Source: Prostheceraeus crozeri (Eukaryota > Platyhelminthes > Polycladida > Euryleptidae). Taken from it: a stretch of DNA of 64,000 nt. The notes under the pieces are model-generated. The model was not told the DNA's origin and did no database searches. It saw only the letters and a program-made list of their open reading frames with translations. Each line of letters starts with the position of its first letter. The first letter of the stretch is position 1. The stretch covers positions 62,001 to 126,000 of the forward strand of contig CAJQUW010009248.1 of the NCBI GenBank assembly GCA_907163375.1. The letters are read 5' to 3'. This document shows positions 20,213 through 41,865 of the stretch, piece after piece. The position numbers and the translations under genes are program-made.

Positions 20213-20218
20213 TACTGA

Positions 20219-23441: not shown

Positions 23442-23527
23442 TATGCATTCGCGTCAGGGCGACATTTAGCCAACTGTCGAAGGTTGCCTAAAACTTTCTG
23501 TTGCATACGTTATGAGAACCATGAGTT

Positions 23528-24027: not shown

Positions 24028-24077
24028 CCTTCAAGTAAGTCAGTATGAAAGCAAAGATAATACGAAATAAAAATTTA

Positions 24078-24524
24078 TTATGGCATGTATTTCAAAAGGT
24101 CTTCATCGTCAATATCGTCCCAGAGTCTGGCTTCACATAGATAGCAAAAACAGTTCACTTGCTTTAATCGTTCTTCCACTGCGAGCCTCACTTTGTCGAT
24201 ATACTCCCACTCCGCCATAGTTCGTGGCTGGGAGTTAGGGGTGTACCACTCCCATAATTGGTGGAGGAATTTGGTGCTGGTGATCTCCATCACATCGTCA
24301 GTATCGTACTGGAGATACTTCCACCTCACGCCTGTTAAGTCGGGACACTCCTTCTCACATACACTCTCTTCGTCGTCCGCTGGTAATGACAACTTTCTGA
24401 TATTGTCCAGTCGGTACACCTTCTCTAACTTCCCCTTCGTTGGAGCGTTTGGTGCAACGAGCGCCTTTGGTGTTGAGGATGGAGAAGAGAATTTTGTGTT
24501 TGGTGTTGTCGGAGGACTTGTCAT
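24078..24524 (-). CDS. Uncharacterised 148-aa Polinton left-arm protein
   Basis: The frame starts MTSPPTTPNTKFSS, with a Ser/Thr/Pro-rich disordered N terminus of about 30 residues. A mixed, acidic body follows with several Trp (WKYLQYD, LWEWYTP, AEWEYIDKV) and a C-terminal CFCYLC motif before an acidic tail. An AATAAA signal on the reverse strand lies near its end (about 24068). No family recognised. It is divergent from the zinc-finger/polymerase gene to its right, and its promoter would lie at 24525-24640, where TATATAC occurs on the reverse strand. Copy B does not extend this far, so conservation cannot be tested. Confidence 0.5.
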   Translation of the reverse strand: MTSPPTTPNTKFSSPSSTPKALVAPNAPTKGKLEKVYRLDNIRKLSLPADDEESVCEKECPDLTGVRWKYLQYDTDDVMEITSTKFLHQLWEWYTPNSQPRTMAEWEYIDKVRLAVEERLKQVNCFCYLCEARLWDDIDDEDLLKYMP

Positions 24525-24937
24525 GTTGACTGTGAATTATAACTTTGAAATGTTTTCTAATTCTTAAGTATCAACAAGCAACCAATCAGAATGAACAGCC
24601 AATGAATGATGAATATGAAAGTATATATGTAAAGTGACATTCGTGTCATTTCACTCTGTCTTTGTGACATATAAGTGAAGTGTTCTCTGGCGAATTCTAT
24701 ATTTGAGGCGTACAAGTGAACTGCTCTCTCGTGAAGTCTCTATCTTGTTGAAGTATCAACCTTAAACTGGATTTCGTTGAAATTGTAAGTTGAAAATTTC
24801 TTCACTCATCTCCCTCAAACGTGTGGCTAATAGCATCTTCCTCAATTTCAGGCATCAACTTCATCACCAACGCCCTCCCTTCTCGAGGAAAGTTTAGAGT
24901 TGTTGAGTCAAAGTAGGTTGTAACAATACACTGAGAC

Positions 24938-27900
24938 TTGAACAGAGATGATAGAATGATTTCTCTTTCAGGTGATGTGAGTTCCAGCTCAGGACTCTCG
25001 CGACAAGGCAACGAGTGGGAATGTGCCGACTGCGGACATATGTTTACAAGGAAGCACAGTCTCCTTCGGCACATCAAACAACGTGTGTGTCAACGCAAAG
25101 CGGCGTCAATCTCGGGAGGTGAAGTTGATTCTGACGATGACATCTCCTTTCCTTGCGATTTGTGCCCTCTTTCTTTTGATAGTCACTTTCAGTGATCTTC
25201 GCGCAGACTTCAACACACGCATGCAAAGGATCACTACACCAACGGTACCTCTACCATCTTCCTCATTAATGTTTCACATAATAATTTAGTACGCGACTAC
25301 TGCATGGAGTCCAATACTGAAATAGTAGATTTTCCTGAGTTACTCCTTCAAAATTCTAACATTATCGAAGCGCTCTTCAACAATTTAGACAATTTTAGAA
25401 TGAAGGCGCTCATCTACCTTAAACTAAAATATATTAAGATAGATTTTCAAACGGGTCAAGTGACGGAGAGAATACAGTTTCATGTTCCTTCCTCTTCCGC
25501 AACCGAAGTTGTAGACTGCGAGTCTTGGCTAAATTTTCACATTCAATGTTTAAAATCAAATGTAGATAAATTCAATCAACGCGACAGCGCTCTCATTTTT
25601 GATGGTGTGGACTCAGCCATATTCAAAATTTCACTATTAGAAAGTCATGCAGCTCGAGGTACATCTAACCTACCAAAAACGTTGTATAATAAGAAAGCTG
25701 TCATCAATGTCGATTGTAAATCACAGTGTTTCAAATATGCAGTCCTATCCATCCTTCACTATAATGATATCAACGCGCACCGAGATCGCACCTATAGCTA
25801 TAGACAGTGGGAGGATGAACTAGACTTTGAAGGTTGTGATAGTAACAACATGAAAATCAAAGATGTAGAAACGTTCGAAAAACATAATAAGATTAAAATT
25901 GTCGTTCACGTGTGGGAGAAGGGGTTGAAGGGTGCCCGCTATAATTCACGTTCAACTTGTTATGAACGTGTAGTCAACCTCTTATTAGTAAAACAAGATG
26001 ATAGCGAGGAATGGCACTACTGTGGTATACCCAAAATCTCTCGCTTGTACACTCACTTGGAGCACTCTAAAAGAGGTGAACATTTTGTATGCGACCGCTG
26101 TATCCGCTCCTTTTGGAGTAAAGATAAATTTGAAACTCACTATGAATGGTGCAAGCGAGGTAAATTACAAATGGAACGCATGCCCAAAGATAAAATATTT
26201 TCACATAGGGATAATGGTGACGAATTAAGTCCCCTGCGTGTCATTTACGCAGACATAGAATGCTACATTGATGATATCATCCACAAGCCAGCAGCCATAT
26301 CCTGCTATGAAGTATGGCATGACCACTTTAGGAATAGACAAAACAAAATGCATACTTGGCAAGGTGAAGATTGCATTTCAAAATTTCTAGAATTTCTCGA
26401 TAAACCTGCTAAATTTCAACAATCATATGATTCCCAATTGCAGCGTAAGTCACTACATATGTCAGATGAAGACAAACAAAAATTTGAAAGTTGGACATCG
26501 TGCCCTAAATGTCATAAAACGTTTGATGACGATAAAATTAAGAAAGTGCGTGATCATGATCACATCACTGGTAAATTTAGAAACGCACTCTGCTCCAAAT
26601 GTAACTTTTCACTTAGGTTGAGACGTCGTGTACTACCCGTCATTTTTCATAACTTTAAGGGCTATGACAGTCATATGCTCATAAAAGGAGGGTTGAGCCA
26701 GATGAAATCGTGGCAGTTTAATGTAATAGCGCAAGCGAGAGAAAAATTCATGGCAATGACAGCAAAAGTACCAGTAGATAAAACAAAAGAAAATAAGACA
26801 GTCTTCTTCGAAATAAAATTTTTAGATTCATTTCAATTCATGTCAGCGTCACTAGCTTCTCTCGTTCGTAATCTCAAGTTTCTTCCCCATAGTCAAACTT
26901 TGAAGAAACACTATCCAAACTTAACGGATGAAATAATCACTCGCAAAGGAGTCTTTCCTTATGCGTATTTTAGCTCAATGTCTAAACTAAATGAAACAAC
27001 CCTTCCTTCCATTGACAAATTCCAAAACGATTTGACGGGTGAACATTGTCCAGTAGAAGATTATGAACATGCTCAAGAGGCATGGATAAAATTTGATTGT
27101 AAAACTTTTGGCGATTATATGATCGCTTACTTAGAATTAGATGTCATTTTGCTGGTTGATGTCTTTCAGGAATTTCGACGAGTGGCATTAAGAAGACAAA
27201 TTAGATCCTGTCCACTTTGTCAGTCTACCAGCCATGTCCTTTAAATCAGCCTTTAAAATGACTGGTGAGACCATTCATCTCTTACAAGACCCGGATATGT
27301 ATAATATATTTGAGCGCGGAATACGCGGTGGTCTCACATTTGTAAATAAACATCATATAAAATCTGAAACAGCAGGTGATGATCATATCCACCTAAAGTA
27401 CTATGACCAAAATAATTTATATGGCAGTTCACTGTCTAAACCACTACCTCATTCCGAGTTTAGTTGGTTAAATCAAGATGAGCTTGAGTATTACTCCAAC
27501 CCTTCAAACATACTGAAGATTCCAGATGAAGGTGATTGGGGATATTATTTTGAAGTGGATTTGATTTATCCAAATAGCATTAAAAATAAAACTGCTGATT
27601 TCCCACTCGCACCTGAATCTGGTGAAGTGACTGAAGATATGTTTTCACCATTCATGTCACAATTTCATAATAACTTAACAGAGTGTGGACAGCCAAGGTA
27701 CAAACCATGCCGCAAACTTTTACTCACCCAATATGATAAGAAAAATTATCTCGTACACTTCTGCATACTAAAATTCTATTTAGAAATGGGCATGCTTCTA
27801 AAGTCAGTTCACCGCATTATCAAATTTAGACAGAAAGCCTTCCTCAAACCCTACATAGATAGTAACAGTCAAAAAACTGCACTCGCCCAAAATAATTTTG

Positions 27901-28752
27901 AAAAGGATTTTTATAAATATAAGAATTAGTCTTTTCGGAAAGACCATGGAGGATGTTAGAAAACGTATGAACTACAAACTAGTCGTTGATGAACAAAAAT
28001 ATCACAAATTGACCTCATCATCTCTCTTTTCATTGATAGAGACATCATCGATGAGGATCTTGTAGGTGTTAAAATGATAAAATCAGAAGTTGAGTTGTGC
28101 AAACCCATCTATATTGGGCAAGCCGTTTTAGATTATTCCAAGCTTGAAATGTATCAATTTTTCTACAAGATATTAAAACCATGACCTCACGTAAGAGGTT
28201 CGCTTGCTGGGTGGTGATACAGATAGTTTCTTTTTAGGAATTACCACTCAAAAAGATTTAAATTTTAATGAAGTAGGCAAGTCATTAGAAAAATATTTCG
28301 ACACATCTAACTACTATCCCACTCATCCACTCTATTCTATACAGAATAAAGCCAAACTTGGTTGTTTTAAGGATGAAACAGCAGGAAAGGAAATAGATGA
28401 AATGATTCTTCTTCGGCCTAAAATGTATTCCATGAAATTAAAAGAATGTGCAGGTAGTATTAAGCGTGCTAAAGGTATATCAAAATCCATTGTTCACAAA
28501 ATGAAACATCGGTCCTATAAGAAGGCCTATAAAAATAAAACTATAACTTTTGTCAATATGACAATCTTAAAATCTCAAGTTCATACTGTGAAAACGCACA
28601 CGTTCAAGAAACGAGCGCTTTCAGCATGGGAGGATCAGAGTTGTTGGATAGGACATAACACATCTCTTCCACATGGACATCCTGACACGAACATACCTCC
28701 ACCCAAAAGAATAAAACTCACGCTACCACATTCAGGAGATGTATTGACATAA
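24938..28752 (+). pseudogene. C2H2 zinc fingers fused to Polinton protein-primed DNA polymerase B (copy A, broken)
   Basis: The gene begins with two C2H2 fingers (CADCGHMFTRKHSLLRH and CDLCPLSF...). A TGA at 25193 lies inside the second finger, and the same frame continues into the polymerase from 25304. Next come the N-terminal domain with KSQCFKYAVLSIL, a finger CDRCIRSFWSK, exonuclease motif YADIECY (26248), an HNH-like block DHDHITGKFRNA, FHNFKGYDSH and YLELD. Polymerase motifs follow: YDQNNLYGSS (27401), KYKN near 27920, GDTDSF (28213). Breaks visible against copy B are frameshifts near 27190, 27928, 28020 and 28195 and a TGA at 28183. The protein would replicate the element by protein priming, but this copy is a pseudogene. 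An upstream spliced exon is possible (TTCTCTTTCAG at 24961-24971). Confidence 0.9.
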
Positions 28753-28931
28753 TCAACTTTAACTCAGTATTTTGATGTTGCTTTTTGTAGATATACATGG
28801 TTGTTTTATGTATCGCATGAGATCGTTTCTTCCTTGTGAATATATGCCTACAGTCAGCCCATTCCCCCTTTATCTGTGAAAAGACTTTTTCATATACATA
28901 TTTTTATTTCAATTAACATATCACAATGGCT
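28753..28931. terminator. Convergent 3' region between polymerase and the 516-aa gene
   Basis: About 180 bp between two gene ends facing each other. It contains TTTTTATTT, which reads as AAATAAAAA on the reverse strand just past the 516-aa stop. The same spacer is recognisable in copy B at 61900-62160. Confidence 0.45.
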
Positions 28932-30482
28932 TCACTTTGTTTTCCGAAACACTGAAGTTACGAGGGATTTAGTATCTTTCACATGGATGCACTCTTGTAA
29001 ACCATTGGTAATTTTGATAGCAATAGAGGGTATAGTTTGTTTGACGACGGGATGATAGAAAATAGATTCAAACATCTTCTCAACTATTCCATATGAAGCG
29101 TCTTTATCATGAATGAAGTCACGTAAAATGTATTCTTTTTTCTCACCAACAGAAATAGGTAGAATCAAATCACTTTGAATGTAAAGGTGCTGTTCATGTT
29201 TATCAAGTGTCATTGGTGTTTCTATACCAATCGTATGCGCAGCAGTAAACACAGTTTGTAGCATTGAAAAACCAAAGAGTTTTTTCAAATTTTTACTCCA
29301 TTGACATTGAATGTCATCACCCAGTTTCAGAACAACGCGTTGATTTTCAATTGAAAACGAAATGTGGTGTGTCTTTACATCATATTTACTTTTCATCACA
29401 TGCTTCAACTTCTGTTGTATATAAGGATTTACTACATGAATGAAGCTTTCAACTGTATGATATAGACACGGCATTATATTGATAGCAACTTTAGATTCTT
29501 GATAAGACTGGTAAATTTTCTTGATGCGATCACCATAGATGTCAACCCACCATTCATCATTAACTGAATCAGCTTTAGTGTGATATTCATGAGAAGCATA
29601 CACCACACCGCTTCCAATAATAGGGGTTGGATGTCTTACAAAATGACGCAAGGTTGGAGAGAAATAAACTGTAAGTTTGTCATTATATTTCTGAATAACC
29701 AACTTATTTTTGTCCGCCATAATTTTCTCTCCATACTTCTTACCCACAGTCTCATTCCATCGTTTTACTAACTCAATAAGTGATAAAGGTTGAACACCAC
29801 GCTTTTTCAAAATGATGCGTATTTCGCATTCTACAACATCTTCATCAAATATTTTAAATTTATAATGAAATTTGTTGATTCGATTTGAATAAACTTTTTT
29901 AACATTTGCAGTAGCAATTGACGTTAGATGTAGTCCATAGCCAAAACCGAGATGTGGATAGAATTCATTATCCAACCTCAGTGTAAGACCTTTAGTAAAA
30001 GAATGAAAGCGAAGGAACTGTCTCCCACTCCAATGATAGATAGTAAACTCATAAGCTTTCTGATTTTTATTCTTCATGATGGAAGTATTACCACTATTGA
30101 ACGCCTTAATAATTTTCTCATTCCCAAATGGACCATAATAATCTGATTTTATCTGAATCCATTCATAGTTCCACTTTCCATCTGATGTAAAATTGTATGG
30201 GAACTGGAATGCATTATTCATCGTTATTCCATCTTGGGTGCGAGGAGTCAATATCATTTCTTCCAAATCATTCACATTCTGAATATTGCTATCATAGCAA
30301 ATACTAGAAACGCCAACCTCCCATTCACCTTCTAAATGTAGTGGGCGATTTAATTCTACTCGATAGTCTGATGGTTTATTTTTGGGAAATTTATTCATAG
30401 AAGCATTACTGGGTAAGTAGATTAGAAACGAGTCCTTATTTTCACTTTCCATATTATTCACATTGGAAAAATATATTAGCAT
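28932..30482 (-). CDS. Uncharacterised Polinton protein, 516 aa, with WEVG motif (copy A, intact)
   Basis: The frame is uninterrupted. It starts MLIYFSNVNN; a second Met at residue 11 may be the true start. Residues 19-60 read SFLIYLPSNAS then LNRPLHLEGEWEVGV. The neighbouring gene has the same F/Y-x-N ... L-x-G-x-WEVGV start, so the two are paralogues. The body is rich in predicted beta strands with scattered aromatic residues, with no signal peptide or transmembrane span. Being last in the train that includes capsid and protease, a virion surface or fibre role is plausible, but this is inference from position. Copy B carries the same gene with breaks. Confidence 0.7.
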   Translation of the reverse strand: MLIYFSNVNNMESENKDSFLIYLPSNASMNKFPKNKPSDYRVELNRPLHLEGEWEVGVSSICYDSNIQNVNDLEEMILTPRTQDGITMNNAFQFPYNFTSDGKWNYEWIQIKSDYYGPFGNEKIIKAFNSGNTSIMKNKNQKAYEFTIYHWSGRQFLRFHSFTKGLTLRLDNEFYPHLGFGYGLHLTSIATANVKKVYSNRINKFHYKFKIFDEDVVECEIRIILKKRGVQPLSLIELVKRWNETVGKKYGEKIMADKNKLVIQKYNDKLTVYFSPTLRHFVRHPTPIIGSGVVYASHEYHTKADSVNDEWWVDIYGDRIKKIYQSYQESKVAINIMPCLYHTVESFIHVVNPYIQQKLKHVMKSKYDVKTHHISFSIENQRVVLKLGDDIQCQWSKNLKKLFGFSMLQTVFTAAHTIGIETPMTLDKHEQHLYIQSDLILPISVGEKKEYILRDFIHDKDASYGIVEKMFESIFYHPVVKQTIPSIAIKITNGLQECIHVKDTKSLVTSVFRKTK

Positions 30483-30491
30483 ACTTTTGCA

Positions 30492-31889
30492 TTAACTCTT
30501 CATTCGGAAATGGAGTGTGATACTTGTCACAGCATCTTTATGAAAAGGAATCAACGCACCAGCATCGTCATAAATTGCAATATCAATTTGTGGGATGTAG
30601 TTTGATTTCTGCTTTGTATAATGTACTTTCTTGAAAGTATGCTAAGATAAAATACTGCAGCTTTTTGGCTGGTATGGTATCATTGCTAGCAATGGAGCTT
30701 CAACATCTCCCACACGTACATCTTCACCAATATTGGAATATATCTGAAAATAGTTAATACGACGCGATAGCGACATGTCTGCGCTAGCTTTGGTTACAGT
30801 ACCACTTTTAAAGATATTTTGATCAAAACCCAAAATGTCCATTAGAGTTTTATCCATAATTAGTTCAATACCTTTTCCACTTATAGTGAGAGACAAAACA
30901 CCTTCTTTTTCAGAAAATGAAATATGTTGCTCATTAATCACTTCATTTAAATAATCTACAACCAGTTTAACCGAAGTAATAATGCGAGGCATCAACACTC
31001 TTGTTTCATGTAAGATACCACTGAAAGGCTCTACACACTTTCTGTATAAAGATACGGCCCATTCTGTATCAAATTGATTTGGCCTTTCACATGGTAAAAG
31101 TTGCATATCAAATTTTCCATTAACAGCTGCAGAATGATGTCGTAAGAACTGATGAAAATCTTTTGAACAAACTAATACTAGATCATCATCATTTAATTTA
31201 CTTATTGCAATATGATTAGATGATTTGATATAAGTCAATGTTGCCACTTGTTTACCATCAACTCGAAGGAGATAATTAAATTTCTTCAATAATGTTTCAG
31301 GAGTCATGTTTGTCTTTCTTGGCTTAATCACAATCTTCTTCACCAACGTCTTCTCATTTCTTGGAATAAGATCTACATAATAAGCTTCCTCTCGATATAT
31401 TAACTGTTTATGACCACTTATGTGGTAATTAACATTAAAATTATCATAGCTTGTTAAGGCGCTAGCGAGGTAACCTAAATGATTTCTTAAACTTGGACTT
31501 AAACCAACAATCCAATCTTTCTCAACTACATGATGTACATAATTATGATCATCATTGTGCGGAGTAAATTGGACAATATGTTTACACGCTTTATTCAAAA
31601 AATCATATATAAACTTTTTACATGATAAGAGATCTTTCTTTGGCCAGTGTGGAATGTATACTCGGCAGCCCTTTTCACATTGGTAAGCAGCTGTGCGTCT
31701 CATATTAATAGTCATCACCTCATGATCAAAAGTATAGACACAGTTGCTATAAACAAGTTGAGTGACACCCACTTCCCAATTTCCATTTAGCTGTTGTGTA
31801 TGATCAATGGGAGTAGAAAAGAGTGCGGCTCGATTACTAGCAAATCTCTTTGTAGCCACATTGCTAAGCAAAATATGATAAAACGACAT
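30492..31889 (-). pseudogene. Uncharacterised Polinton WEVG paralogue (copy A, premature stop)
   Basis: Starts MSFYHILLSN with QQLNGNWEVGVTQL at residues 32-45, the motif shared with the 516-aa protein. The frame is open for 415 residues and stops at TAG (30642), where copy B has GAG and continues about 50 residues to a stop matching 30492 here. The lost tail includes a hydrophobic C terminus ending HFRMKS in copy B. The protein is strand-rich and about 465 residues when complete. Function unknown; a structural virion protein is my best guess from its neighbours. One nonsense change is the only defect seen. Confidence 0.65.
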
Positions 31890-31912
31890 TTTTATATTGC
31901 TGATCTGCGACT

Positions 31913-32281
31913 TTGCATAACATCATGAAGACTTGGATTTTAGACTCTCTACAATATATCAGAGTTGATCGTGATGGAAACGTACATTTCAAAAATTCTC
32001 ATGGTCATACATCAAGAGGTATTACATTAACATGGCGACAATTTGTCAACCTCAATGATATCATGAGGGATTTGGAATATTTTGAAACATTAAGATTCAT
32101 CTCCTTGGGTGATCAAGTTTGGCTTCAACGTCGCAACAATGAAATTCAAATCTGCCATTCTCATTCCGCAAACTGTTTCTCATTTCGCAAATACAATTGG
32201 GAGAAGTATAGAAGATACATACATCGCTCCATCATGACATTTATTCGTCGTGAGTTCATCGCCCTACTATGCAAATCTTAA
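31913..32281 (+). CDS. PC4-like small protein 1 (copy A)
   Basis: 122 aa, intact in both copies. Start is MHNIMKTW; the second Met at 31925 aligns with the start of the downstream paralogue. Residues 22-56 (GNVHFKNSHG, then RGITLTWRQF, then a helix NLNDIMRDL) recall the PC4 layout of strand, G-x-ISL-x-xxQW and helix. A second half repeats the pattern: IQICHSHS, FSFRKYNW and KYRRYIHRSI. PC4 family proteins bind single-stranded DNA and act with TBP in transcription. The likeness is by pattern only. It opens a forward cluster opposed to the long reverse train, and the next genes are a paralogue and a TBP-like protein. Confidence 0.6.
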   Translation: MHNIMKTWILDSLQYIRVDRDGNVHFKNSHGHTSRGITLTWRQFVNLNDIMRDLEYFETLRFISLGDQVWLQRRNNEIQICHSHSANCFSFRKYNWEKYRRYIHRSIMTFIRREFIALLCKS

Positions 32282-32303
32282 TCAGACATGACTACCACAC
32301 ATC

Positions 32304-32953
32304 ATGAGTTGGAAATTAGATTCCCTACAACGTATTGAAACGGATCATGATCGAAACGTCTATTTCAAAGATTCAACTGGAAATGTGAGAAGAGAGTTTG
32401 CTTTATCTTATCGTCATTTTCAATCTCTACATCATATCATGAAGGATTGAAATACTTCTATATGAAAAGACATTCACGTATTGGAAATCGCATCTGGCTG
32501 CGCGTCAACAAACGGCGAATTCAACTCTATCATTCCCAACTTCATACTAACTTCACATTTCATCAAGGTAGTTGGGAGAAGTATAAAAGGAAGGTACATC
32601 GCTCAATTTACTCATTATTTCATCATGAAGCGCCATCGCTACACTATCGTCAACATTCTCCGTCGCTTCAGACTCTACACCAAAATCGATCTCACAACAT
32701 TACTCCAACACCTTCCAAACAGCAAGTATTACCCGGGCCGACCTCAAATGTTAATGGTGAAGATGAACAATTCACGGAATCTTCAACTCTTCCCAAATGG
32801 GACTGTACACATTCTCGGCGCCCTTTCTCATTCATCGGCGCAGTCAATGCGCTTAGAGCTACAAAGACTACTACGTCGGATATGGAAGAGGGAGAGGTGT
32901 GTGATGTCGAATCTGACTGTGGACAATATGGTGATCTCTACTCAATTGAGTGA
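32304..32953 (+). pseudogene. PC4-like small protein 2 with overprinted tail (copy A, one-base deletion)
   Basis: Starts MSWKLDSLQRIETDHD at 32304 and matches protein 1 over its full length (DSLQ, VYFKDSTG, SYRHFQSLHHIMKD). A one-base deletion at about 32448, compared with copy B, gives an early stop; the rest is open from 32447 to 32953. The C-terminal 100 residues go beyond the paralogue: they are Ser/His/Gln-rich then acidic (MEEGEVCDVESDCG). This tail is read from the same DNA as the first half of the TBP-like gene, in another frame. Copy B has the intact 216-aa version. Confidence 0.6.
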
Positions 32954-33170
32954 CAGTCTATCATTTTTGAAGATTCGTACCAGCAGTTACAATTTGTGTT
33001 ATGAACCCGAACTTTTTCCTGCAGCTCTCATTAGTTGTTGGTTACCTGTGCATGTGGCAATCTTTCATAATAGTAAAGTGATCATTACTGGACTAAAATC
33101 TCATGTACAAGCAAATGTGATCCTAGACTATCTCATCGAGTATGTACGCACCCAGCGGATTGTAAAATAA
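32625..33170 (+). CDS. TATA-binding-protein-like protein (copy A, intact)
   Basis: I start it at Met 32625 (MKRHRYTIVN), giving 181 aa, the size of the conserved TBP core. The two pseudo-symmetric TBP repeats can be followed. Repeat 1 runs about residues 6-88: IVN, IDL, YYPGRPQMLMVKM, and FPNGTVHILGALSHSSAQ. Repeat 2 runs about 98-178: TVDNMVIS, YEPELFPAALI (126-136), and IFHNSKVIITGLKS (146-159). YEPELFP and the 'sGk-xx-TGaKS' pattern are hallmarks of TBP. The DNA-intercalating Phe pairs seem only partly kept. A longer frame from 32481 exists but its start overlaps the PC4-like gene. Likely role: binding promoters of the element or competing with host TBP (inference). The stop overlaps an AATAAA signal. 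Confidence 0.75.
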   Translation: MKRHRYTIVNILRRFRLYTKIDLTTLLQHLPNSKYYPGRPQMLMVKMNNSRNLQLFPNGTVHILGALSHSSAQSMRLELQRLLRRIWKRERCVMSNLTVDNMVISTQLSDSLSFLKIRTSSYNLCYEPELFPAALISCWLPVHVAIFHNSKVIITGLKSHVQANVILDYLIEYVRTQRIVK

Positions 33171-33196
33171 AAAACAATTTTTCCAACATGATGTTT
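33165..33196. terminator. Convergent poly(A) signals between TBP-like and protease genes
   Basis: Forward AATAAA overlaps the TAA stop of the TBP-like gene (GTAAAATAAAAAAC), and reverse AAATAAAAAC overlaps the stop of the protease. Only 26 bp separate the two stops. The same arrangement is kept in copy B. Confidence 0.6.
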
Positions 33197-33658
33197 TTAT
33201 TTCAAATCATGATAGAACTTACAAATCATTTTTTTATTAGAGGATGGATTACATGAAAAGTTTTGAATAACAGATACAAATCGAGATACATGTAAACGTT
33301 TTAAGATGAAGTACAGTACAAAAGCACCACACGTTGATGAAAGTGGATGTTGTAGTATGCGTTCATTTCGCTGATATTGACGCGTATGTTTTCTCAACCA
33401 CTGCTGTGTTGGTATATTTGGAGGTTGAGCAAGAGAGTCAAATAGTTCACCACGTCGGTCTTCTCCAATAAAGATCGCTTTCCAATGCTCACCGCCTAAA
33501 TTCTTCGAATGAGTGTTTAGCACAATAAAGATGGGATAGTGATTTACTGCAGGTGGTAAGGTATCGAGTGAATAGACATTATCGAAAGCTTTCAACGTCG
33601 CTTCGTCTGCATTACGCTGCACTTTAGTCTTAATATCGTCAGCAGTCAACCAACTCAT
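33197..33658 (-). CDS. Adenain-like cysteine protease (copy A)
   Basis: 153 aa, intact in both copies. His58 (GGEHWKAIF), Asp74 (LFDSL), Gln103 (LQHPLSSTCGAF) and Cys110 give the His-Asp-Gln-Cys layout of the adenain/Ulp1 clan. The size is close to Polinton and adenovirus maturation proteases. In adenovirus the enzyme cleaves capsid and core precursors after Gly-containing sites; the Gly-Gly sequences in the minor capsid and core proteins here would be natural substrates. Its start overlaps the stop of the capsid gene (TAATG), implying coupled expression. Confidence 0.9.
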   Translation of the reverse strand: MSWLTADDIKTKVQRNADEATLKAFDNVYSLDTLPPAVNHYPIFIVLNTHSKNLGGEHWKAIFIGEDRRGELFDSLAQPPNIPTQQWLRKHTRQYQRNERILQHPLSSTCGAFVLYFILKRLHVSRFVSVIQNFSCNPSSNKKMICKFYHDLK

Positions 33659-34933
33659 TAACGATTATACTGAAGAATCACGTCACGATACTTTGTAATT
33701 TCAATATTTGAATCGAAGACTGCATAAATTAATACATTGATCGTCTCAGGTAGTGTTCTTTTGAACGTCAAATCCAAACGAATATTATGAGGCACGTTCG
33801 CTTGACGATAGGGGCCACTAATGTCGCTGTCAGCAGTCAAATCAAATGCATAAATAGTATATCCACTCTTAAACTCTTTCATAGTGAGTCCGTTGGTATC
33901 ATCCGTATTGTAAAAGCCAAAGACATCCATAAAATCAACATAACTGCGCATAAATTGATCCGCAGCAAAATCTGGTTTGTAGGGTGGACCAGGATGACTC
34001 ACACCATTTACACGTAAAGCAATTTCACTTAACTGATTGTGTTTAAAATTGAAAGGATTCTTCTTTATTTTACCATTAAATGCATCATTTTCAACCATTG
34101 CCACCATGAGGGGCTTCGGTGCTTCCGATGGAAAGAGGGCATCTTTCATGAAACTCTTTTGATCTTTAGGAATTGTAAAGGTGAGAAGCTTTGTATGCTG
34201 AACGGTAAATGGCATTTTGGCGGTTAAGACCTTCAGCATGTCCTCTAATGACACTTGGATTCGGTACTACTCGACGAATGTAAAGTGCAATATCTTCCAC
34301 ATGAATTCTAAAATTGTCAACTTTAGCAAATGCATTCAGCGCAAATTCAGACTTATTCAATGTCAGCTTGAGTCGCATGCTGGTATTACAGAGTAAAAAC
34401 TTTGACTGTCTAAAGAAGTCTAAATTCAGCGGACCATATAGCTGACATACTCTACTATCTTTAATCATAGCAGATCACTTTACAAAGCCACTGTTTGTTT
34501 CAACATCAAATTTTCCTGCTTCATCTGTGTACCATCCCATGGCTTCCATATGACTTTTTTGTGCTGCTGGATGAAACTGTGATACATGATTGAAATATGA
34601 TTTATAGGGATAATCGCCTTGACCACCTTCCACCTGCTGCTCTCCAATCGTTAGAGAAACATCACGAAGTTATGTAGTCAATGGTAAATTGTTCAGTCCA
34701 ACTTTATGTGTATCGTCAATAGCAGTTCCATCTGCTTGCTGAATTCTAAACCTCAAATCAACCATCGCATAACTCAAATCTATGTAGTCATCACTACCAC
34801 CAGAAATAACAAATTCAATGGGGCCAGCATTCTCAGCTGTTCGAGGATGATAATCTACAATACTTGAACTAAGAATATCTGTCTGTATGGCTTGTTGATC
34901 AAACAAACAAAAACCGGAAGTTTTACACTCTAT
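33658..34933 (-). pseudogene. Polinton major capsid protein (copy A, broken)
   Basis: Same gene as the intact 425-aa frame at 55854-57131. In copy A the start codon is ATA (34931-34933), there is a TAA at about 34673 and a TGA at about 34470, and two bases are lost at about 34222. The remaining pieces match copy B almost everywhere, including GPIEFVISGGSDDYIDL and VNGVSHPGPPYKPDF. The family is the double jelly-roll capsid of Polintons, often annotated as F54H12.2-like. With four separate lesions the gene cannot make capsid. Confidence 0.9.
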
Positions 34934-34935
34934 GA

Positions 34936-35391
34936 TTAGAAGTTATGGCAGCGTCGTCGTTTAGCGCCTGATGAATGATTAGAGCCTCTGCGACGTTTGC
35001 GTGAATGCCTTTTGACTGAAGATCGTACCTTACCAGCTCCGCGATGTTTCCTCCTTCCTTTTTTCATTCGTTTAGGTGATTTCTTTCCTTGAGTAACACC
35101 AGCAAAGGTCTGCTTCAATGTTTTTAAACCACGTTCCTTCCCACGATTCAACAAACTGCTCTTAAAACTTCTACCTCTGGAAAGATCACTAGCAACATCA
35201 CCAGCAAAGCCAACGGCATTACTTAAATCATTTCGTTTTAAAGATCTACCGACATTGGATATGAGAGGTGCTACAACAGATTTCAGTGCACCAAGTATGC
35301 TACCTCCACGTTGGCGGCGAGCGCCGTTGTAAATTTGTCCTCCACCACTTACCTAGGAGGGTCGTGAATAAAATGAGGCAGTTGGATTCAT
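34936..35391 (-). pseudogene. pVI/pX-like minor capsid protein (copy A, nonsense)
   Basis: Starts MNPTASFYSRPS at 35391 and meets TAG at codon 13, where copy B has TAT. Copy B instead has a TGA three codons earlier where A has CGA, so each copy has its own nonsense change. The 151-aa product has a Gly-rich region with GGSILGALKSVVAPLI, an amphipathic segment like the membrane-active part of adenovirus pVI. Its C terminus is very basic (KRMKKGRRKHR, SRKRRRGSN), suited to DNA binding. Gly-Gly sites would suit the adenain-like protease. Two small out-of-frame starts exist but are not needed. Confidence 0.7.
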
Positions 35392-35432
35392 AGCTCAAAC
35401 CCTAAACATTGTTAGTTACAACTTTGCATGAA

Positions 35433-36521
35433 TCACTGTCGATCACTTAGATGAAAGATGGCGGCACGACGCATCCAAGAGTTCATACTTGAAGGATAAC
35501 CAGTCCATTTAACAAGACACCATTCTTCACCTTGCCTTTTTTTACATCGAATGATTTTCTCTACCAAATATGTTTCACTTTCAGTGACTACCTCAATCTC
35601 ATCGCGGTAAAAGCTACCCTCAATTTCTTCATTATCGTAATCTTTCAACTTGTAGGTGGTCGGAGAGTCTTTTTGATTAATCCTTGATACTGTAAATACC
35701 TCCTCTGTCCAATTCGGAAGGTACCCTTTAGCAAAAACACTTTTCACTTTTGAGATACGAACTTTATCACCAATTTTCACATCACTTTTCACATGAGTGC
35801 GTTTACGTTGGAATGATTCGCGCACTTTATCTACATTGTCAGCATTTACATCTACTGGTCTGAGTCCAATAGAACGATGGATAGAGTGATTGTAGGCATG
35901 GAGTGTATCTTGTAGAACCTTTGTCCAATTTTGTGTCAAGTTGGCAGTAAAATGTCGCCACAAGCGATTTTTTAATGTGCGATTAAAACGTTCAACGAGT
36001 GCAGCTTTATAAGCACTCTTTACACTAAACAACTCAATGTCATGCCTCTCAAATAATCTTGTCACATGCTGATTTTCAAACTCTTTCCCTTGATCACTCT
36101 GAATTCTTTTTAGAATGCGACCTTCTCGAAAAATTGTTTTGAATGCTTTTGCTACTCCTTTCCCTTCTTTAGTTTTTAAAGGTTGAGCCCACGCATAACG
36201 CGAGAAAATATCAATGACGGTTAAAATAAAATTATTGCCCGAGTTATGTTTTGAAATGGAGGCAACATCACACAAATCTGCTTGCCACTGTTCATCGATG
36301 TCATGAACAATATAATGTCGGGTGCGGTACTTCTTTTTCGCTTGTTTGTGGAGTGTATAGGTAGCCTGACCCTTTAACCATCGTTTCACTTGTGATTGTG
36401 GAAGACCACTCGCTTTTGATAATTTCTTGATAGATGCAAATCCTGCCGGATGTTTTACATCATAATAGATTGACTTCAAACGTTCAGTCGATGACGACTG
36501 ACTCTTTTTTCTCCTTCTCAT
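35433..36521 (-). CDS. Polinton integrase with chromodomain (copy A, intact)
   Basis: I start at Met 36521 (MRRRKKSQ); a longer frame to 36653 overlaps a Cys-rich gene. From this Met, residues 16-50 hold the Polinton N-terminal domain (YYDVKHPAGFASIKKL, VKRWLKGQATYTLHK). The retroviral-type core has Asp82 (QWQADLCD), Asp143 (IQSDQGKEFEN) and Glu177 (ALVERFNRT). A beta-barrel C-terminal domain follows (VKIGDKVRISK), and a chromodomain lies at about 318-350 (YLVEKII ... LVKWTGYPSSMNSW). It joins element ends to host DNA; the chromodomain may steer it to modified chromatin. All catalytic acids are present. Copy B has two frameshifts. Confidence 0.92.
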   Translation of the reverse strand: MRRRKKSQSSSTERLKSIYYDVKHPAGFASIKKLSKASGLPQSQVKRWLKGQATYTLHKQAKKKYRTRHYIVHDIDEQWQADLCDVASISKHNSGNNFILTVIDIFSRYAWAQPLKTKEGKGVAKAFKTIFREGRILKRIQSDQGKEFENQHVTRLFERHDIELFSVKSAYKAALVERFNRTLKNRLWRHFTANLTQNWTKVLQDTLHAYNHSIHRSIGLRPVDVNADNVDKVRESFQRKRTHVKSDVKIGDKVRISKVKSVFAKGYLPNWTEEVFTVSRINQKDSPTTYKLKDYDNEEIEGSFYRDEIEVVTESETYLVEKIIRCKKRQGEEWCLVKWTGYPSSMNSWMRRAAIFHLSDRQ

Positions 36522-36699
36522 CTTTTTGTTTTCTTGCCTTTCTACATTTACAACAACTGCAGCATTTAGCTTTAGCGGTTTTGCGATCGTGTTCACATTG
36601 CTTAGGGGTTTCATTGTGAGAGCTGGCGCAGCAAGTGCAAGTGACAACGACATTCACCTCTGGCGGCTCATTACATGGGAAGCAACACATCTTCTTCAT
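36484..36699 (-). CDS. Cys-rich 71-aa mini-protein (copy A)
   Basis: Starts one base after the stop of the 230-aa gene (TAATATGAAG). It reads MKKMCCFPCNEPP, then CTCCASSH and KAKCCSCCKCRKARKQK, with 12 Cys and a His, and ends Lys/Glu-rich. The pattern suggests a small zinc-binding protein. It is open in both copies with few changes and keeps all but one Cys (one CTC becomes RTC in B). It overlaps the start of the integrase frame by about 38 bases. No family recognised. Confidence 0.55.
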   Translation of the reverse strand: MKKMCCFPCNEPPEVNVVVTCTCCASSHNETPKQCEHDRKTAKAKCCSCCKCRKARKQKDEKEKKESVVID

Positions 36700-36700
36700 A

Positions 36701-37393
36701 TTAATAGTCTGAGAACATGTATTTCCTGGGAGGAGCTGTTTTACGTTTTCCTTTTACTAGTTTTAGTGGTGGTGTAGATCTACGTCGAGTTCTTCCTCTT
36801 GTTTGCTTAGTGAGTGTGGGAGGGGATGTAGCAGGTGACGTCTTAAACCAATTTGTTGGCATTTTCATCGTCTGAAGCATTGGAGCAGTAGCCACTGTTG
36901 AATCAAGTTCTTTCAATGTCTCATTATTCAAAGCAAATTTTGGCACATTATGCTTTTTCAATAGTTTAAGAAAGTATGACCAACCAGGTAGAACATAGCC
37001 CTGACGGCGCTTTCTACGTGTCGCATACTGAATCAAGTCTTCATAACGTGAAGCATCAATCACTTTATTTTCATCTGTAATGATTTCTCCTCTATCATTT
37101 ACATTGAGATGGGGTTCAATACTGTTGAAAAGAGATATGGCATGTGCGCGAGATGCTAAAGGTGTAGCAGTCGATACAGAGTCACGCATCTTATTTTTCA
37201 AGTTTTTCAATTGCTCAACAGTTTCCGATTGTAATAATACAGCACGATGTGGATCTTTGATGTGAACATTTTGCTGATAATCTATTTCTTTCCTATACAT
37301 TTGATTTGCAAGAGGTTGCTTTACTTGCTGCATGGCAGTCAATTGTACATATTCATCCTGAGGAATAACAATCATGCGAGAATAAGAACTCAT
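36701..37393 (-). CDS. Conserved Polinton 230-aa protein of unknown function (copy A)
   Basis: Intact in both copies with only a few substitutions. It starts MSSYSRMIVIPQDEY and has a helical N-terminal half, then FNSIEPHLNVNDRGEIITDENKVI, RKRRQGYVLPGWSYFLKLL and a basic Pro-rich tail with TRGRTRRRS. A protein with this order (N-terminal helix, 'GEI', 'PxGWxxF') usually follows the ATPase in Polintons; its role is not established. Its ATG overlaps the ATPase stop (ATGA), so the two are probably expressed together. Confidence 0.75.
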   Translation of the reverse strand: MSSYSRMIVIPQDEYVQLTAMQQVKQPLANQMYRKEIDYQQNVHIKDPHRAVLLQSETVEQLKNLKNKMRDSVSTATPLASRAHAISLFNSIEPHLNVNDRGEIITDENKVIDASRYEDLIQYATRRKRRQGYVLPGWSYFLKLLKKHNVPKFALNNETLKELDSTVATAPMLQTMKMPTNWFKTSPATSPPTLTKQTRGRTRRRSTPPLKLVKGKRKTAPPRKYMFSDY

Positions 37394-38055
37394 AGTTTGT
37401 AGATAATCATGGGAGTTTTCAAAATATCACTTCGAAATCTAAATTCTTCCGGACACTCTTGCGTAAAGTAAATGAATAAGTAACCGTATGGTTTTTCAGT
37501 AGCTGCTTGGAAAATTTCAATTAAGGCTTTTGATCCTCTGGGTGCAACTTGTCGCGCTAAAATTTCAAATTGACTTTTATCTCGCGGATTCTTGAAAATA
37601 GCATAATAGTGTGTATTCAGGTTTCGTGTACGAGCTTCTTTTCCATCAGGAAACAAATTTTGTGTGATATAGATGATAAAGCACCTTTTATGATGTGCCG
37701 CGCGAGTGAACATATCTGCAACATCTTTTGAATTCTTACTTTCTTTTAAAAAATCATCCAATACAACAACATCATTAGACTGAAGTTTATCCACTGCAAT
37801 AATTCCTTCATGTCGAATAAAGTTACGATTTTGTAATTCCTGAAACAGCGACGGTTGATAGATACCATAACACCAAATCACTCGATTGATAGGTTCCTTA
37901 AACAACTCCCTTCTTTTATCCAATAAATTCAGCGTGAAAACAGTTTTACCTGCATGAGATGGACCTGATACAGTCAGAACTTTATCACATTGAAGTCTGA
38001 AATCCATTTTAATACCTTGAGATTCAACATTTGTATAATTAACGCTTAGAGCCAA
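37390..38055 (-). CDS. FtsK/HerA-type DNA-packaging ATPase (copy A)
   Basis: 221 aa, intact. Walker A is GPSHAGKT (31-38), Walker B VVVLDD (96-101), and a sensor-like ITQNLF lies at 130-135. The short, single-domain form is typical of Polinton packaging ATPases, which pump DNA into the capsid. A second Met at residue 17 (MDFRLQ) is the start used in many relatives. It overlaps the end of the core-protein gene by 17 bases and the start of the 230-aa gene by four, forming part of a tight train. Copy B has a 14-codon in-frame deletion. Confidence 0.92.
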   Translation of the reverse strand: MALSVNYTNVESQGIKMDFRLQCDKVLTVSGPSHAGKTVFTLNLLDKRRELFKEPINRVIWCYGIYQPSLFQELQNRNFIRHEGIIAVDKLQSNDVVVLDDFLKESKNSKDVADMFTRAAHHKRCFIIYITQNLFPDGKEARTRNLNTHYYAIFKNPRDKSQFEILARQVAPRGSKALIEIFQAATEKPYGYLFIYFTQECPEEFRFRSDILKTPMIIYKL

Positions 38056-38404
38056 AGATATTACCCAATAGGTTGCCCACGACAGGAGCTAACATTGGAA
38101 GTATTGCTGAAAGGAAACCGCCCTTTTGTGTTAGAGTTATCCTCTTTCATTGAAGTGGGACTTTAGGATTGGAGATGAAACGCAATTTTGTGGCATATCG
38201 CTTAAGTAACTTTAGTTGTTTTGGCGCTAATTTCTTCGTCCTCAACTTTCTGACATGAGAAATAATTTCACGAATGAATTTATCGTTGGCATATCGTATA
38301 GCATTGTATCGCTGATTTGCTTTCATTCGTCGGAGAGCTTGAATGGCTGAAGAAAACTTTGAAGACTTTTGACTTTTACGTTTCGCCATTTTACGTTTCG
38401 CCAT
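38039..38404 (-). pseudogene. Basic virion-core protein (copy A, nonsense)
   Basis: Starts MAKRKMAKRK with a repeated basic motif. The helical body (SAIQALRRMKANQRYNAIRY) stops at residue 85, where TGA replaces an Arg codon of copy B. The missing tail holds the GGF-type hydrophobic segment described for copy B. The family (basic N terminus, long helix, RGGF + hydrophobic C terminus) is widespread in Polintons. Confidence 0.75.
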
Positions 38405-38455
38405 TTTCCGTGTTAGTCTTTGCTAAAACCTATCTTTACCACATTTGCATAGGTA

Positions 38456-38784
38456 CTAACTATTGCGACATAAGTGACACTCGAAATGAGCAACATCACA
38501 GTGGTTAAATTTGCAAAGTTGAATGCATCTACGTATGAAACAGCGTTGACAAAAGCGTGCTTACATCTCTTGAAGATGCGCTTTTCATTTCCATCCTTTC
38601 GCTTACATACATCACAACACATAGTTTCACCGTTACTGATGTCTATAGCAAGTCTTTTTGAAGATATGAATTTGCTAGCCTTTTCTAAATAATAGACGCA
38701 TGTACAGAAGGAATATACTTCGAGAGTGAGCAGACATAGCTGGAAAACCAGTTGTGCTACAATCAAGTACCACTGCATTTTCAA
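38456..38784 (-). pseudogene. Membrane-anchored RING-like protein (copy A, frameshift)
   Basis: Same gene as the intact 109-aa frame at 52050-52379. A T-run is one base shorter here (near 38550), so the frame leaves the Cys-rich region after RCKHAF and reads a false hydrophobic tail to 38413. The N-terminal hydrophobic segment and first zinc ligands are unchanged. Confidence 0.75.
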
Positions 38785-39191
38785 TTTTTCTTTATGGAAA
38801 GTTGAATGTGAATATCTGAAATCGCTTCAATCACTAGACTGCTACCATGATGGTTAAATGCGTTAAGACGTTCAGCAATTTTTATCATATGTCTTTTAAA
38901 AAATTCTTCGGGGTGATCTACCACTTCCATTGAATAAGAAGCAAAATGGAAAGAGCGACTTTCCACCTCTTCCTTTCCAAAATGACTAAACTTAATTTTC
39001 ACAACTAATCGCGCCATGACAATGCTATCAGAGAATGCATTCATTAACTCTAGAAATAGAGTGCTAGCATCATCGACCACTGCTTCGATGTCGGTCTCAT
39101 CTTTATGAAAATTTATCACATAATCTTGAACAGCTCCTTTTAAACTTTGCCTATGAAAATGTAATGTTCCGCAGTCGTTTGTGAAAGACAT
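38781..39191 (-). CDS. Conserved Polinton 136-aa protein (copy A)
   Basis: Open in both copies; B lacks three codons. It starts MSFTNDCGTLHFHRQ. Its second half reads SRSFHFASYSMEVVDHPEEFF ... IAERLNAFNHHGSSLVIEAISDIHIQLS. A segment of this type (aromatic strand, helix with F-x4-GSG-W/L-v-x-x-I, ending in a strand) often precedes the polymerase in other Polintons and adintoviruses. Here it may be a stand-alone version. That link is a pattern impression from memory. Its ATGA start/stop overlap ties it to the membrane RING gene. Confidence 0.6.
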   Translation of the reverse strand: MSFTNDCGTLHFHRQSLKGAVQDYVINFHKDETDIEAVVDDASTLFLELMNAFSDSIVMARLVVKIKFSHFGKEEVESRSFHFASYSMEVVDHPEEFFKRHMIKIAERLNAFNHHGSSLVIEAISDIHIQLSIKKN

Positions 39192-39275
39192 GATCGCCCT
39201 TTATCTAACCCATCCATTGCATGAAAACAACTCTTCTCATTGCAACATTCATTGAATTACGGTAACAAGCATGCA

Positions 39276-39824
39276 TTATAAATCAATGGTTTGAAAGAGA
39301 TAAAATAGATACAGCTGGTAACTATCATACAGCGAGCAATGATAACCATACAGGACTTTGGCAGTGCTGAGGTAAGTTGGAAAGAAGCATTGGTTATGAA
39401 CGTAGCTACTACAACGAACAGACAAAATAGGAACAGATAAATCCTTAAAACGTTTCGTGACTTCATGATAATGTTGATTCACTCTACTATCCCAAGGTGG
39501 GAGCGAAATATCATCAATGATTAGATTGGGAAATACTTTCCTCTCCTTACCAGGATTATTACAAAAGATGCGTATAACATTGAAAGCAGCTAACCATCGT
39601 TTAAAGTCAATAAGAAGAGCACTCTCACAAGAAAAGCCATAGTCTTGCAAATATTTCAGATTAAGTCCATGAATGTGTTTTCTCACCCATTGATCAACAT
39701 TGGGATTGCAGTTGGCATGTTGATGATAGACACTAACAATCTGATATGTCCAATTGTTCATAGCAATAGCACTGAGCTCCTGTACAGGTTCACCCTCACA
39801 ATCCATAAAAATGATGATAGAAGC
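39276..39824 (-). CDS. DEDD-type exonuclease-like protein (copy A, intact)
   Basis: The in-frame region begins at 39824, right after an acceptor-like TTTTAG, giving ASIIIF before the first Met. FMDCEGEPVQELSAIAM has the D-x-E of exonuclease motif I on a hydrophobic strand. Further acidic blocks (LIDFKRWL, IDDISLPPWDSRVNQH) and a C-terminal HCSLYDSYQLYLF could supply the remaining ligands. The start codon may come from splicing to the ATG exon at 40791-40793, because the join is in phase; otherwise translation starts at Met 39806. Proposed role: proofreading or nucleic-acid processing. Copy B has one nonsense codon. Confidence 0.65.
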   Translation of the reverse strand, partial: ASIIIFMDCEGEPVQELSAIAMNNWTYQIVSVYHQHANCNPNVDQWVRKHIHGLNLKYLQDYGFSCESALLIDFKRWLAAFNVIRIFCNNPGKERKVFPNLIIDDISLPPWDSRVNQHYHEVTKRFKDLSVPILSVRCSSYVHNQCFFPTYLSTAKVLYGYHCSLYDSYQLYLFYLFQTIDL

Positions 39825-39858
39825 CTAAAACGGAAATTTACACATCTAAGGAAACGTT

Positions 39859-39984
39859 CTATAACATATTACAAAATGAAGAATTACATCGATGCTTTTC
39901 ACGACAACATACACAAATGATATGATGGCAACGAAGAAGTAAAATGTATCTAATAAGACCACGTCTACGACACTCAAAGCACAT
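39859..39984 (-). CDS. Small RING-like zinc protein, 41 aa (copy A)
   Basis: Starts MCFECRRRGL and continues LLLRCHHIICVCCREKHRCNSSFC. Cys2, Cys5, Cys19, His20/21, Cys24, Cys27, Cys33 and Cys38 form a RING or treble-clef-like set. It lies between the spliced gene and the exonuclease, within the possible intron that joins the ATG exon to the exonuclease. Open in both copies with one change (C to F) outside the main ligands. A longer frame upstream (from 40107) overlaps the previous gene's basic tail and is probably not used. Confidence 0.5.
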   Translation of the reverse strand: MCFECRRRGLIRYILLLRCHHIICVCCREKHRCNSSFCNML

Positions 39985-40018
39985 AAGCGAATTGTCATAG
40001 GGTAGAGTTAGGAAAGGA

Positions 40019-40793
40019 CTAGTAATTCTCCTTCTTTGATTTGCGTTTTGATGCAGCATTCTTGTCCGACTTGCGCTTCGTACCACTGCTGTTAAGGATT
40101 TGATCAATTATGTCGTCCACGTTGGGTGGTTTTGGAATATATAGGATGGATTCCATATGCATGGAGAATGAGGCTATTTTATTATCCTTGTGACGACCAT
40201 AATATAGCCCATTCACTTTGAAAAGGATATCCCAAGTACCTTCTCCGAGCTCGTCGCATGTGATGGGTGTTGAATGATCTCCCTCCTTCTTATAGTAAGT
40301 GCACCAATGTGATACCGGTAGGCAAATGTGATTACCATCCCAAATCTTTCTATAGGGAGTATCCTTGTCATCTGTCGCCTTCCACTCTTGAGCAAGAGGA
40401 GTAGGAATGTCCATATTTAATGTCACGTACTCCTCAATAATATCAAGTTGGTGGCGAATGTACGGACTCACGGGGATCAGTATGTAGTCTCCATACTGAT
40501 TATGCATTATCTTGACATCCGTGGAAGGGAGCATTCCCGTTTGGAGTACTACGCCATGATCGTCATAACGCAAGACTTGTTCAAATTTACGCTGTAGCGG
40601 TGTAGGATTATGTACCTTGGTTGTTTCTTCCACTGGCCTCAGTTGTAGATGATCTGATCGTAGCGAACCTTGTAACGTTTGACCGCCATTTTGTCCTACT
40701 AGTGCAGCAGATGGAGTAGATGCCTAAAAATGAAAAAGACTGTATTAAGTTTACGTTCAAGGGAGGAGAGGGAGGAAAGTAGCGACTTACCAT
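40019..40793 (-). CDS. Spliced putative DNA-binding protein, 235 aa (copy A)
   Basis: The ATG at 40791-40793 is followed at once by GTAAGT. A 67-nt intron ends CATTTTTAG at 40724, and exon 2 (40723-40019) begins GCA TCT in phase, giving MASTPSAALVGQNGG. Copy B has the same structure. The body is mixed alpha/beta, with WDILFKVNGLYYGRH and SFSMHMESILYIP, which recalls single-stranded DNA-binding proteins that read 'GxYxG...S..vxxIl'. The C terminus is a Lys/Arg/Ser tail (KRKSKKENY). First gene of the late-like train; a replication or packaging role is possible. Family not certain. Confidence 0.65.
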
Positions 40794-40950
40794 TTTAGTT
40801 GGATAATAGAATAGAGAGAGAGAGAAAATGTGCGTCCGTCACTCGTGCGATTCAACGATGGAATGATTCTCACTGTCGAAGGTTCGCTATTTATATAGAA
40901 ATGCTTGATTCTCATTGGATGATGATCCTCATTGGACAATAACATCAAGC
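40794..40950 (-). promoter_or_regulatory. TATA/CCAAT promoter of the reverse gene train (copy A)
   Basis: On the reverse strand, two CCAATGAG boxes (near 40935 and 40915) precede TATATAAATAG (about 40888-40898). A CT-rich initiator region follows and then the ATG about 95 bp further on. Copy B has the same layout at 49905-50046. No other TATA box was seen within the train. Confidence 0.75.
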
Positions 40951-41215
40951 TGATTCCAAATCTGGCCTCCGTTTACCAATCCGAGCCTTCATTCGCCCGC
41001 TGGAGCTGTTTCTTGGGAAATTCTAACTCTGTCGTTTTTCGTCAATCTCCCAAAATCTTAAATGGCGTCTCACATCTAAACGAAGACAGATATGAACAAG
41101 GCGTTTCTTTCACAGAATTTGTCTCACTCTTAGCTTTCAAACGAGCTATTGCACGACAAAATCTGTCCACTAGAGGCCAAGAGCGAAGCTAGCTCTCCCG
41201 AGGGGGGGGAGGTCA

Positions 41216-41859: not shown

Positions 41860-41865
41860 TACTCA

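Follow-up and report, generated by a model that had tools for sequence, protein, structure and literature searches.

A TBP-family protein encoded by Polinton/adintovirus-type elements of a polyclad flatworm and its possible role at element promoters

Polintons are generally taken to depend on the transcription of their host; what, then, is a gene for a TATA-binding protein (TBP) doing inside one? The question is raised by a stretch of 64,000 nucleotides from the polyclad flatworm Prostheceraeus crozeri (assembly GCA_907163375.1, contig CAJQUW010009248.1, positions 62,001 to 126,000), referred to here as the window. On its forward strand an open frame of 181 codons runs from an ATG at 32625 to a stop at 33170, within a Polinton/adintovirus-type element of about 21.6 kb (element A, 20219..41859, bounds inferred). 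An earlier note, made from the letters of the window, had read this frame as a two-repeat, TBP-like protein of 181 residues and had suggested that the element directs its own promoter recognition or interferes with host TBP. The identity of the protein, its spread and conservation, the promoters around it and the functions that it could serve are considered here in turn.

On sequence evidence, the frame is almost certainly a TBP-superfamily protein with two repeats. In a Pfam-A scan TBP (PF00352) was the only family, matching in two stretches with 70.4 bits (E 1.1e-19, cut-off 22.9 bits), and the profile was significantly matched over both repeats. The NCBIfam scan returned ten families, every one named TATA-box-binding protein, the best at 6.3e-18 over residues 4-175, each match being under its own cut-off. 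When the protein was compared with PDB sequences (E<=10), 35 of the 37 matches listed were TBP chains, with values from 4e-13 to 3.8e-7, and the remaining two were TonB at E>1; the 35 include an entry named only ECU04_1440 protein, which we take to be a TBP. A profile built from 122 members matched 2z8u best among PDB chains (E 1.8e-25, profile positions 17-198 of 204). Furthermore, repeat 1 contains SKYYPGRP and repeat 2 contains CYEPELFPAALI, so that the motifs YYPGRP and YEPELFP are read at the places where they had first been noted. Homology to TBP, far above chance, is thereby confirmed.

The frame is best read as belonging to a lineage of animal Polintons or adintovirus-type elements. 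It lies between long terminal inverted repeats, the arms of which are found in pieces within 20218-20909 and 41199-41860, and near an integrase (35433..36653, minus strand) with an rve core (1.1e-9) and a chromodomain (2.2e-6), both above the Pfam cut-off; such an integrase is given as an adintovirus feature in PMC11071296. The 20-base ends AGTAGTAAGTAAAACTCCAC match exactly at both termini and, allowing up to two mismatches, occur nowhere else in the window. The element had been described as bounded by a target-site duplication, which holds in part: the flanks TACTGA and TACTCA agree in 5 of 6 bases and form an imperfect, putative duplication. A second inverted pair, 86-87% alike, lies directly outside the ends (19987-20219 and 42070-42302) and could represent either a repeat of the host or an older element in nested position; because of it the bounds of element A are provisional. 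An inverted copy, copy B, occupies about 49.2-63.7 kb, its terminus not being found within the window. The TBP gene recurs there as had been claimed (about 57619..58163, minus strand, coordinates mapped from the inverted arms), with a frameshift caused by a one-base gap.

Beyond the window, the whole genome was searched (2.05 Gb, 14165 contigs). The window protein gave at least 150 matches, those listed all spanning residues 1-181 and being free of stops. The PF00352 search, likewise with at least 150 matches, of which 20 were translated, recovered, besides the host TBP and a TRF2-like gene, the window form (family 1) and no fewer than three further element families that are more divergent (families 2-4 below). 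The host TBP gene is split by an intron and is separate from the element TBP, as is the TRF2-like gene. Identity among the element families is 35-55%, compared with 22-24% to host TBP, 19-22% to the TRF2-like gene (partial) and 20-26% to an archaeal TBP. Of 46 family-1 loci from the PF00352 search, 40 retain a TBP frame of 181 codons or more and six do not. The surroundings of the gene can be followed across families. The family-3 locus L054 has the gene order of the window, pPolB-ORF516-ORF415-ORF-b-TBP-PRO-MCP-INT-ORF230-ATPase (ORF, open reading frame), and L051, of the same family, has it too but without an ORF-b match. In the single family-4 locus (L053) the run TBP-PRO-MCP-INT-ATPase is kept and the ORF516/ORF415 block stands in the opposite orientation to that in the window. 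In the family-2 loci L052, L055 and L056 TBP stands beside ORF-b and polymerase pieces, and no capsid module turned up in the 10 kb examined at each; these loci are possibly rearranged or of a different architecture. L052 also carries duplicated small frames, two of them ORF133-like, and ORF199/ORF242. The shared order in divergent elements implies that the surroundings of the TBP gene stayed the same as the proteins diverged to 35-55% identity, and the presence of at least 150 copies and at least three divergent TBP families argues that it is no passenger.

Relatives outside this genome were found among environmental proteins. A single phmmer search of protein sequences gave 33 relatives, and Pfam TBP was matched by all 34 members of an alignment, A1. 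A profile search yielded 1135 environmental proteins at E<=0.001 among 4931 candidates; PF00352 was found in all of the best 120, and the matches beyond these may include cellular TBPs. In a tree of 34 rows, 31 element-like rows fall on one side of a branch with 100/100 support and three cellular rows on the other, the branches being long. No relatives were found in the viral contig and prokaryote genome contig collections searched, and the element context is thus seen in this genome only. The expectation that the frame would recur in other elements is borne out at other loci of the host genome; the environmental relatives are known as protein sequences. TBP-bearing elements may form a large, undescribed environmental family. 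One environmental protein of another kind, P0127, obtained from three sources, is 99% identical to ORF-a of copy B, a small frame described below, which places this element or its host in environmental DNA samples.

The residues by which a TBP meets DNA and its partners were counted in alignment A3, comprising 122 proteins, the window's own included, rather than all 1135 profile matches. Phe at positions 56, 131 and 147 of the window protein is kept in 122, 121 and 122 of them, whereas position 40, the slot of the first Phe of repeat 1, is Pro in 119. The full set of four intercalating Phe, a trait of canonical TATA-binding TBPs, is therefore absent and three are kept. Asn10 is retained in 111 proteins (10 gaps and one Asp) and Asn101 in all 122; in the stirrup, Glu127 is kept in 118 and Glu129 in 122. 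We take the Phe at these positions to be those that intercalate and kink DNA, the Asn to face DNA, the stirrup Glu to lie on the TFIIB side, and the repeat-1 side to be that which binds TFIIA. So read, the pattern is consistent with a protein that may still bend DNA and contact TFIIB, with its repeat-1 side altered.

The TBP gene has a promoter of recognisable form. A TATA box, TATAAAAG (32582..32589, plus strand), the only one of this sequence in element A, lies within the overlapping upstream ORF-b (32304..32953, plus strand), at -43 relative to the start of TBP, and is followed by an initiator-like CTCATT (32611..32616, plus strand) about 33 nt past its first T. Among 76 family-1 loci, 74 matched the start pattern, of which 70 have TATAAAAG at -43 and 72 have CTCATT at -14. 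The same box was found in four of six distinct family-2 loci (5/8 rows, two loci being represented twice) and, at -46, in two of three distinct family-3 loci, whose start codon is shifted three bases downstream; the third locus has an extra A. A trace of this arrangement is visible in environmental relatives. Among the 121 other members of A3, 22 extend at least 16 residues upstream of the window's start column; Ile-Lys stands 14 residues before that column in 13 of these, one residue nearer in a fourteenth, and is absent in eight. In the window the Ile-Lys codons are the TATA box within ORF-b, and their presence in 13 of 22 suggests frequent retention of the upstream gene and promoter in the environmental relatives too. 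By this indirect route, the environmental proteins may likewise come from Polintons.

A different signal was found upstream of other element genes when every hexamer at -60 to -15 of the gene starts was ranked, using 15 starts for family 1 and nine for family 3. Before family-1 genes the top hexamer of 593 is ATGCAA, with 5 of its 11 copies in the element lying there (p 4.4e-7); before family-3 genes it is AAGCAA, first of 363 (6 of 11, p 3.3e-8). Family 3 has a further piece, L097, in a state too decayed for the motif to be read. With randomly chosen starts, 9 of 500 sets reached the family-1 value and none of 500 the family-3 value. The two hexamers differ by one base and lie at -29 to -47, the distance of a TATA box. 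In the window ATGCAA is located at -29 of ORF415 (31913..31918, minus), a gene provisionally labelled minor-capsid-like, at -40 of ORF516, counted from its second ATG (30487..30492, minus), at -46 of a basic Adeno_PX-like frame (38445..38450, minus), at -31 of ORF133 (39217..39222, minus) and at -35 of ORF-b (32269..32274, plus). Across 36 starts of all four families, AAGCAA occurs at -75 to -15 in nine; the corresponding numbers are 3 for the antisense strand, 0-2 for stretches within genes, 2 further upstream and, on average, 1.08 in shuffles.

Taken together, these observations bring us to a mechanism to which we give an even chance: an early, host-driven TBP gene whose product would replace host TBP at private late promoters of the element. 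The TBP gene would be read early, by host TFIID and RNA polymerase II, from its own TATA and initiator promoter. The 181-residue product would then bind a private core-promoter element, A[TA]GCAA, sited where a TATA box would be and preceding several other element genes, mainly structural ones; three of the usual four Phe would bend this DNA, the conserved C-terminal stirrup YE.ELFP would bring in host TFIIB, and the protein would thereby take the place of host TBP at the late promoters. In the window TBP, ORF-a, ORF-b and polymerase lie on one strand and the other named element genes on the opposite one. This layout and the TATA promoter point to an early TBP gene, transcribed by the host machinery, whose product would then serve late genes. 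The idea of the earlier note that the element directs its own promoter recognition thus finds support in two family-specific upstream hexamers and in the retained DNA-side and TFIIB-side residues, while early and late timing, a hexamer-binding protein, recruitment of TFIIB and loss of TFIIA/TAF control are the parts that we infer.

Several observations weigh against the proposed mechanism. The hexamer signal comes from two elements only (15 and nine starts), some starts having been chosen by eye, and A[AT]GCAA precedes just one of seven family-2 and one of five family-4 starts. In the window element itself, 10 of 15 starts have no ATGCAA, among them PRO, MCP, INT, ORF230, ORF109, ORF176 and ORF204, and a non-structural gene, ORF-b, does have it. 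The G-C step within the proposed core element is not one preferred by cellular TBP, and ATGCAAAT is, we take it, also the POU octamer of the host. In the one family-4 locus the TBP gene contains a stop and no TATAAAAG precedes it. Finally, 74 family-1 copies differ by 103 nonsynonymous and 57 synonymous distinct changes, a ratio per site of about 0.5, which is expected of decaying copies and gives no strong sign of selection on single copies; a ratio (dN/dS) of about 0.06 from the first 30 loci was discarded, since those loci had been selected by protein score and the less biased set gave about 0.5.

Other functions were weighed against the same evidence. The protein could be a TBP for ordinary TATA boxes, supporting or autoregulating its own TATAAAAG promoter and a few other element genes that contain TATA, with the hexamers read by something else. 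That TATAAAAG precedes the TBP gene in families 1-3 and that TATA-side residues are largely conserved would suit such a role, but host TBP could already serve that promoter, and at -60 to -15 of element genes TATAAA shows no enrichment (1 of its 17 occurrences in family 1, 2 of its 26 in family 3); we regard it as rather unlikely. Somewhat less probable again is that the protein acts mainly on the host, competing for or sequestering host TBP, TFIIB or TATA boxes while host factors read the element promoters. A TFIIB-side stirrup that is conserved while repeat 1 is altered, and a canonical TATA promoter of the gene's own, are compatible with this. A pure protein decoy, however, would have no need of the DNA-facing Asn and three Phe that are kept in nearly all 122 proteins, and the core-promoter distance of the hexamers suggests that a dedicated protein reads them. 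The hexamers might instead be bound by a sequence-specific host factor, such as a POU protein at ATGCAAAT, the TBP-like protein having another role. Two of the five family-1 sites do extend to ATGCAAAT, but the family-3 sites have AAGCAA without the octamer and the narrow spacing of -29 to -47 is more like that of a core element than of an enhancer site, so that this explanation appears improbable to us. That the gene is a recently captured host TBP or a decaying passenger without function in the element is scarcely credible: the frameshift in copy B, the six family-1 loci of 46 without a 181-codon frame and the weak selection signal would agree with it, but recent capture was rejected on identity (22-24% to host TBP against 35-55% between element families), and the shared neighbourhood in divergent elements, the conservation across 122 aligned proteins and the position in the tree apart from the three cellular rows all speak against it.

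In comparison with known systems, the protein resembles cellular TBP (PF00352) of eukaryotes and archaea in its two tandem repeats, the YEPELFP stirrup of repeat 2, the central Asn pair and three of the four intercalating Phe, with roles presumed as above. It departs from cellular TBP in the Pro of the repeat-1 slot, in being encoded by a mobile element and in its identity of just 19-26% to host TBP, the TRF2-like protein and an archaeal TBP. The carrier shares with Polintons/Mavericks and adintoviruses the rve and chromodomain integrase, the long terminal inverted repeats, and protease-like, capsid-type and ATPase-like genes, the last three known by weak matches or provisional labels. Virus-encoded proteins of this kind have precedents. 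According to PMC13345323, ORF24 of Kaposi's sarcoma-associated herpesvirus and its homologues in beta- and gammaherpesviruses are TBP-like and act at late promoters with a non-canonical TATTWAA. The proposed late-promoter logic is similar, whereas the additional N-terminal Pol II-binding domain of ORF24 is missing from the element protein, which is a TBP core of 181 residues only, and none of the TATT[AT]AA occurrences (0 of 5 in family 1, 0 of 14 in family 3) falls at -60 to -15 of an element gene. TBPs are also reported from nimaviruses (white spot syndrome virus, WSSV), mirusviruses and a megavirus in PMC4506587, PMC10132985 and PMC11464507; these are large viruses, likened to the present case by description only, and the TBP frame of a WSSV relative is given as 818 aa (PMC4506587). 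In the main text of a paper on Polintons and adintoviruses (PMC8097293), the words TATA, TBP and transcription are absent. No description of a TBP in an animal Polinton was found in the literature searched, which mostly excludes subscription journals, in keeping with the earlier note, to which TBP was not known as a standard Polinton gene. Virus-encoded TBPs are thus already known, and within that literature one in an animal Polinton appears new.

The gene upstream is itself part of the arrangement. ORF-b, of 216 aa where intact, overlaps the TBP gene with its 3' half in a different frame. Its frame is broken in element A and is of full length in copy B (57835-58485, minus) and in 21 of 29 other loci (L002-L030); it is also placed at L054:4306-4905 and at L052:5017-5730 (minus). 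In families 1-3 its length is 216, 237 and 199 aa and its overlap into the TBP gene 108, 112 and 101 codons, and in each of these families none of 2000 synonymous-codon shufflings kept the ORF-b frame open that long; in family 4 the overlap is absent. Conserved in its C-terminal part are FSF..A...L and, close to the end, an acidic stretch containing SIE. Synonymous changes make up 28 of 225 possible ones in the overlap compared with 29 of 144 outside it (Fisher p 0.055), which is only suggestive. From these sequence features, the overlap is likely to be an overprinted gene. ORF-a (31925..32281, plus), of 118 aa, is a tandem paralogue of the N-terminal half of ORF-b (44% identity) and has six environmental homologues. 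An internal two-repeat pattern is apparent by eye in ORF-a and in the N-terminal half of ORF-b (32304-32624). Neither protein has a convincing Pfam or PDB match, and a PC4-like label, an impression unsupported by Pfam, PDB or PHROGs, was dropped.

Other genes of element A are assigned with varying firmness. Convergent with TBP is an adenain/Ulp1-like protease (33197..33658, minus; Peptidase_C48 0.001, 19.4 bits, slightly below the cut-off of 20.7), and an A32/FtsK-like packaging ATPase (37390..38055, minus) matches weakly (Pox_A32 0.033, below cut-off). A major-capsid-type gene (33658..34933, minus) is broken in element A and open as 55854-57131 in copy B, and a protein-primed polymerase region (25304..28752, plus) consists of broken frames in the ORF scan. 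The polymerase, capsid and minor-capsid (ORF415) labels are our assumption from gene order and motifs, unconfirmed by Pfam, PDB and PHROGs (for the capsid, no informative PHROGs match). Among the element ORFs scanned, no RNA polymerase gene was recognised. A small basic ORF of copy B (52431-52787, plus) has a sub-threshold match to adenovirus core protein X (PF05829, E 0.0025). Elsewhere in the window, 5703-8147 (minus) encodes an 814-aa reverse transcriptase with a weak endonuclease-domain match, of the long interspersed nuclear element type. On the mitochondrial contig of the assembly (L098, G000:C6227), COX1 and COX2 share a strand and COX1 reads through with the invertebrate mitochondrial code.

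As a tentative extension, in which we place less than even confidence, a whole lineage of animal Polintons may run its own two-stage transcription programme, in which an early, TATA-driven, re-specified TBP reads a private late promoter that evolves with it. The late core promoter would then be lineage-specific, ATGCAA in one family and AAGCAA in another, and a second early protein would have its acidic C-terminal half encoded by the same DNA in an overlapping frame. If this is true, a virus-specific general transcription factor would exist in an element of about 21 kb without a recognised RNA polymerase gene among its scanned frames. Polintons are commonly put close to the root of many lineages of eukaryotic DNA viruses. 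A conserved, mobile and re-specified TBP with candidate cognate promoters would offer a small and tractable system for studying how TBP specificity evolves, how a virus sets its late genes apart from the control of the host, and whether larger viruses have TBPs related to those of Polintons. The TBP frame would, moreover, be a marker for what is possibly a large environmental family of such elements.
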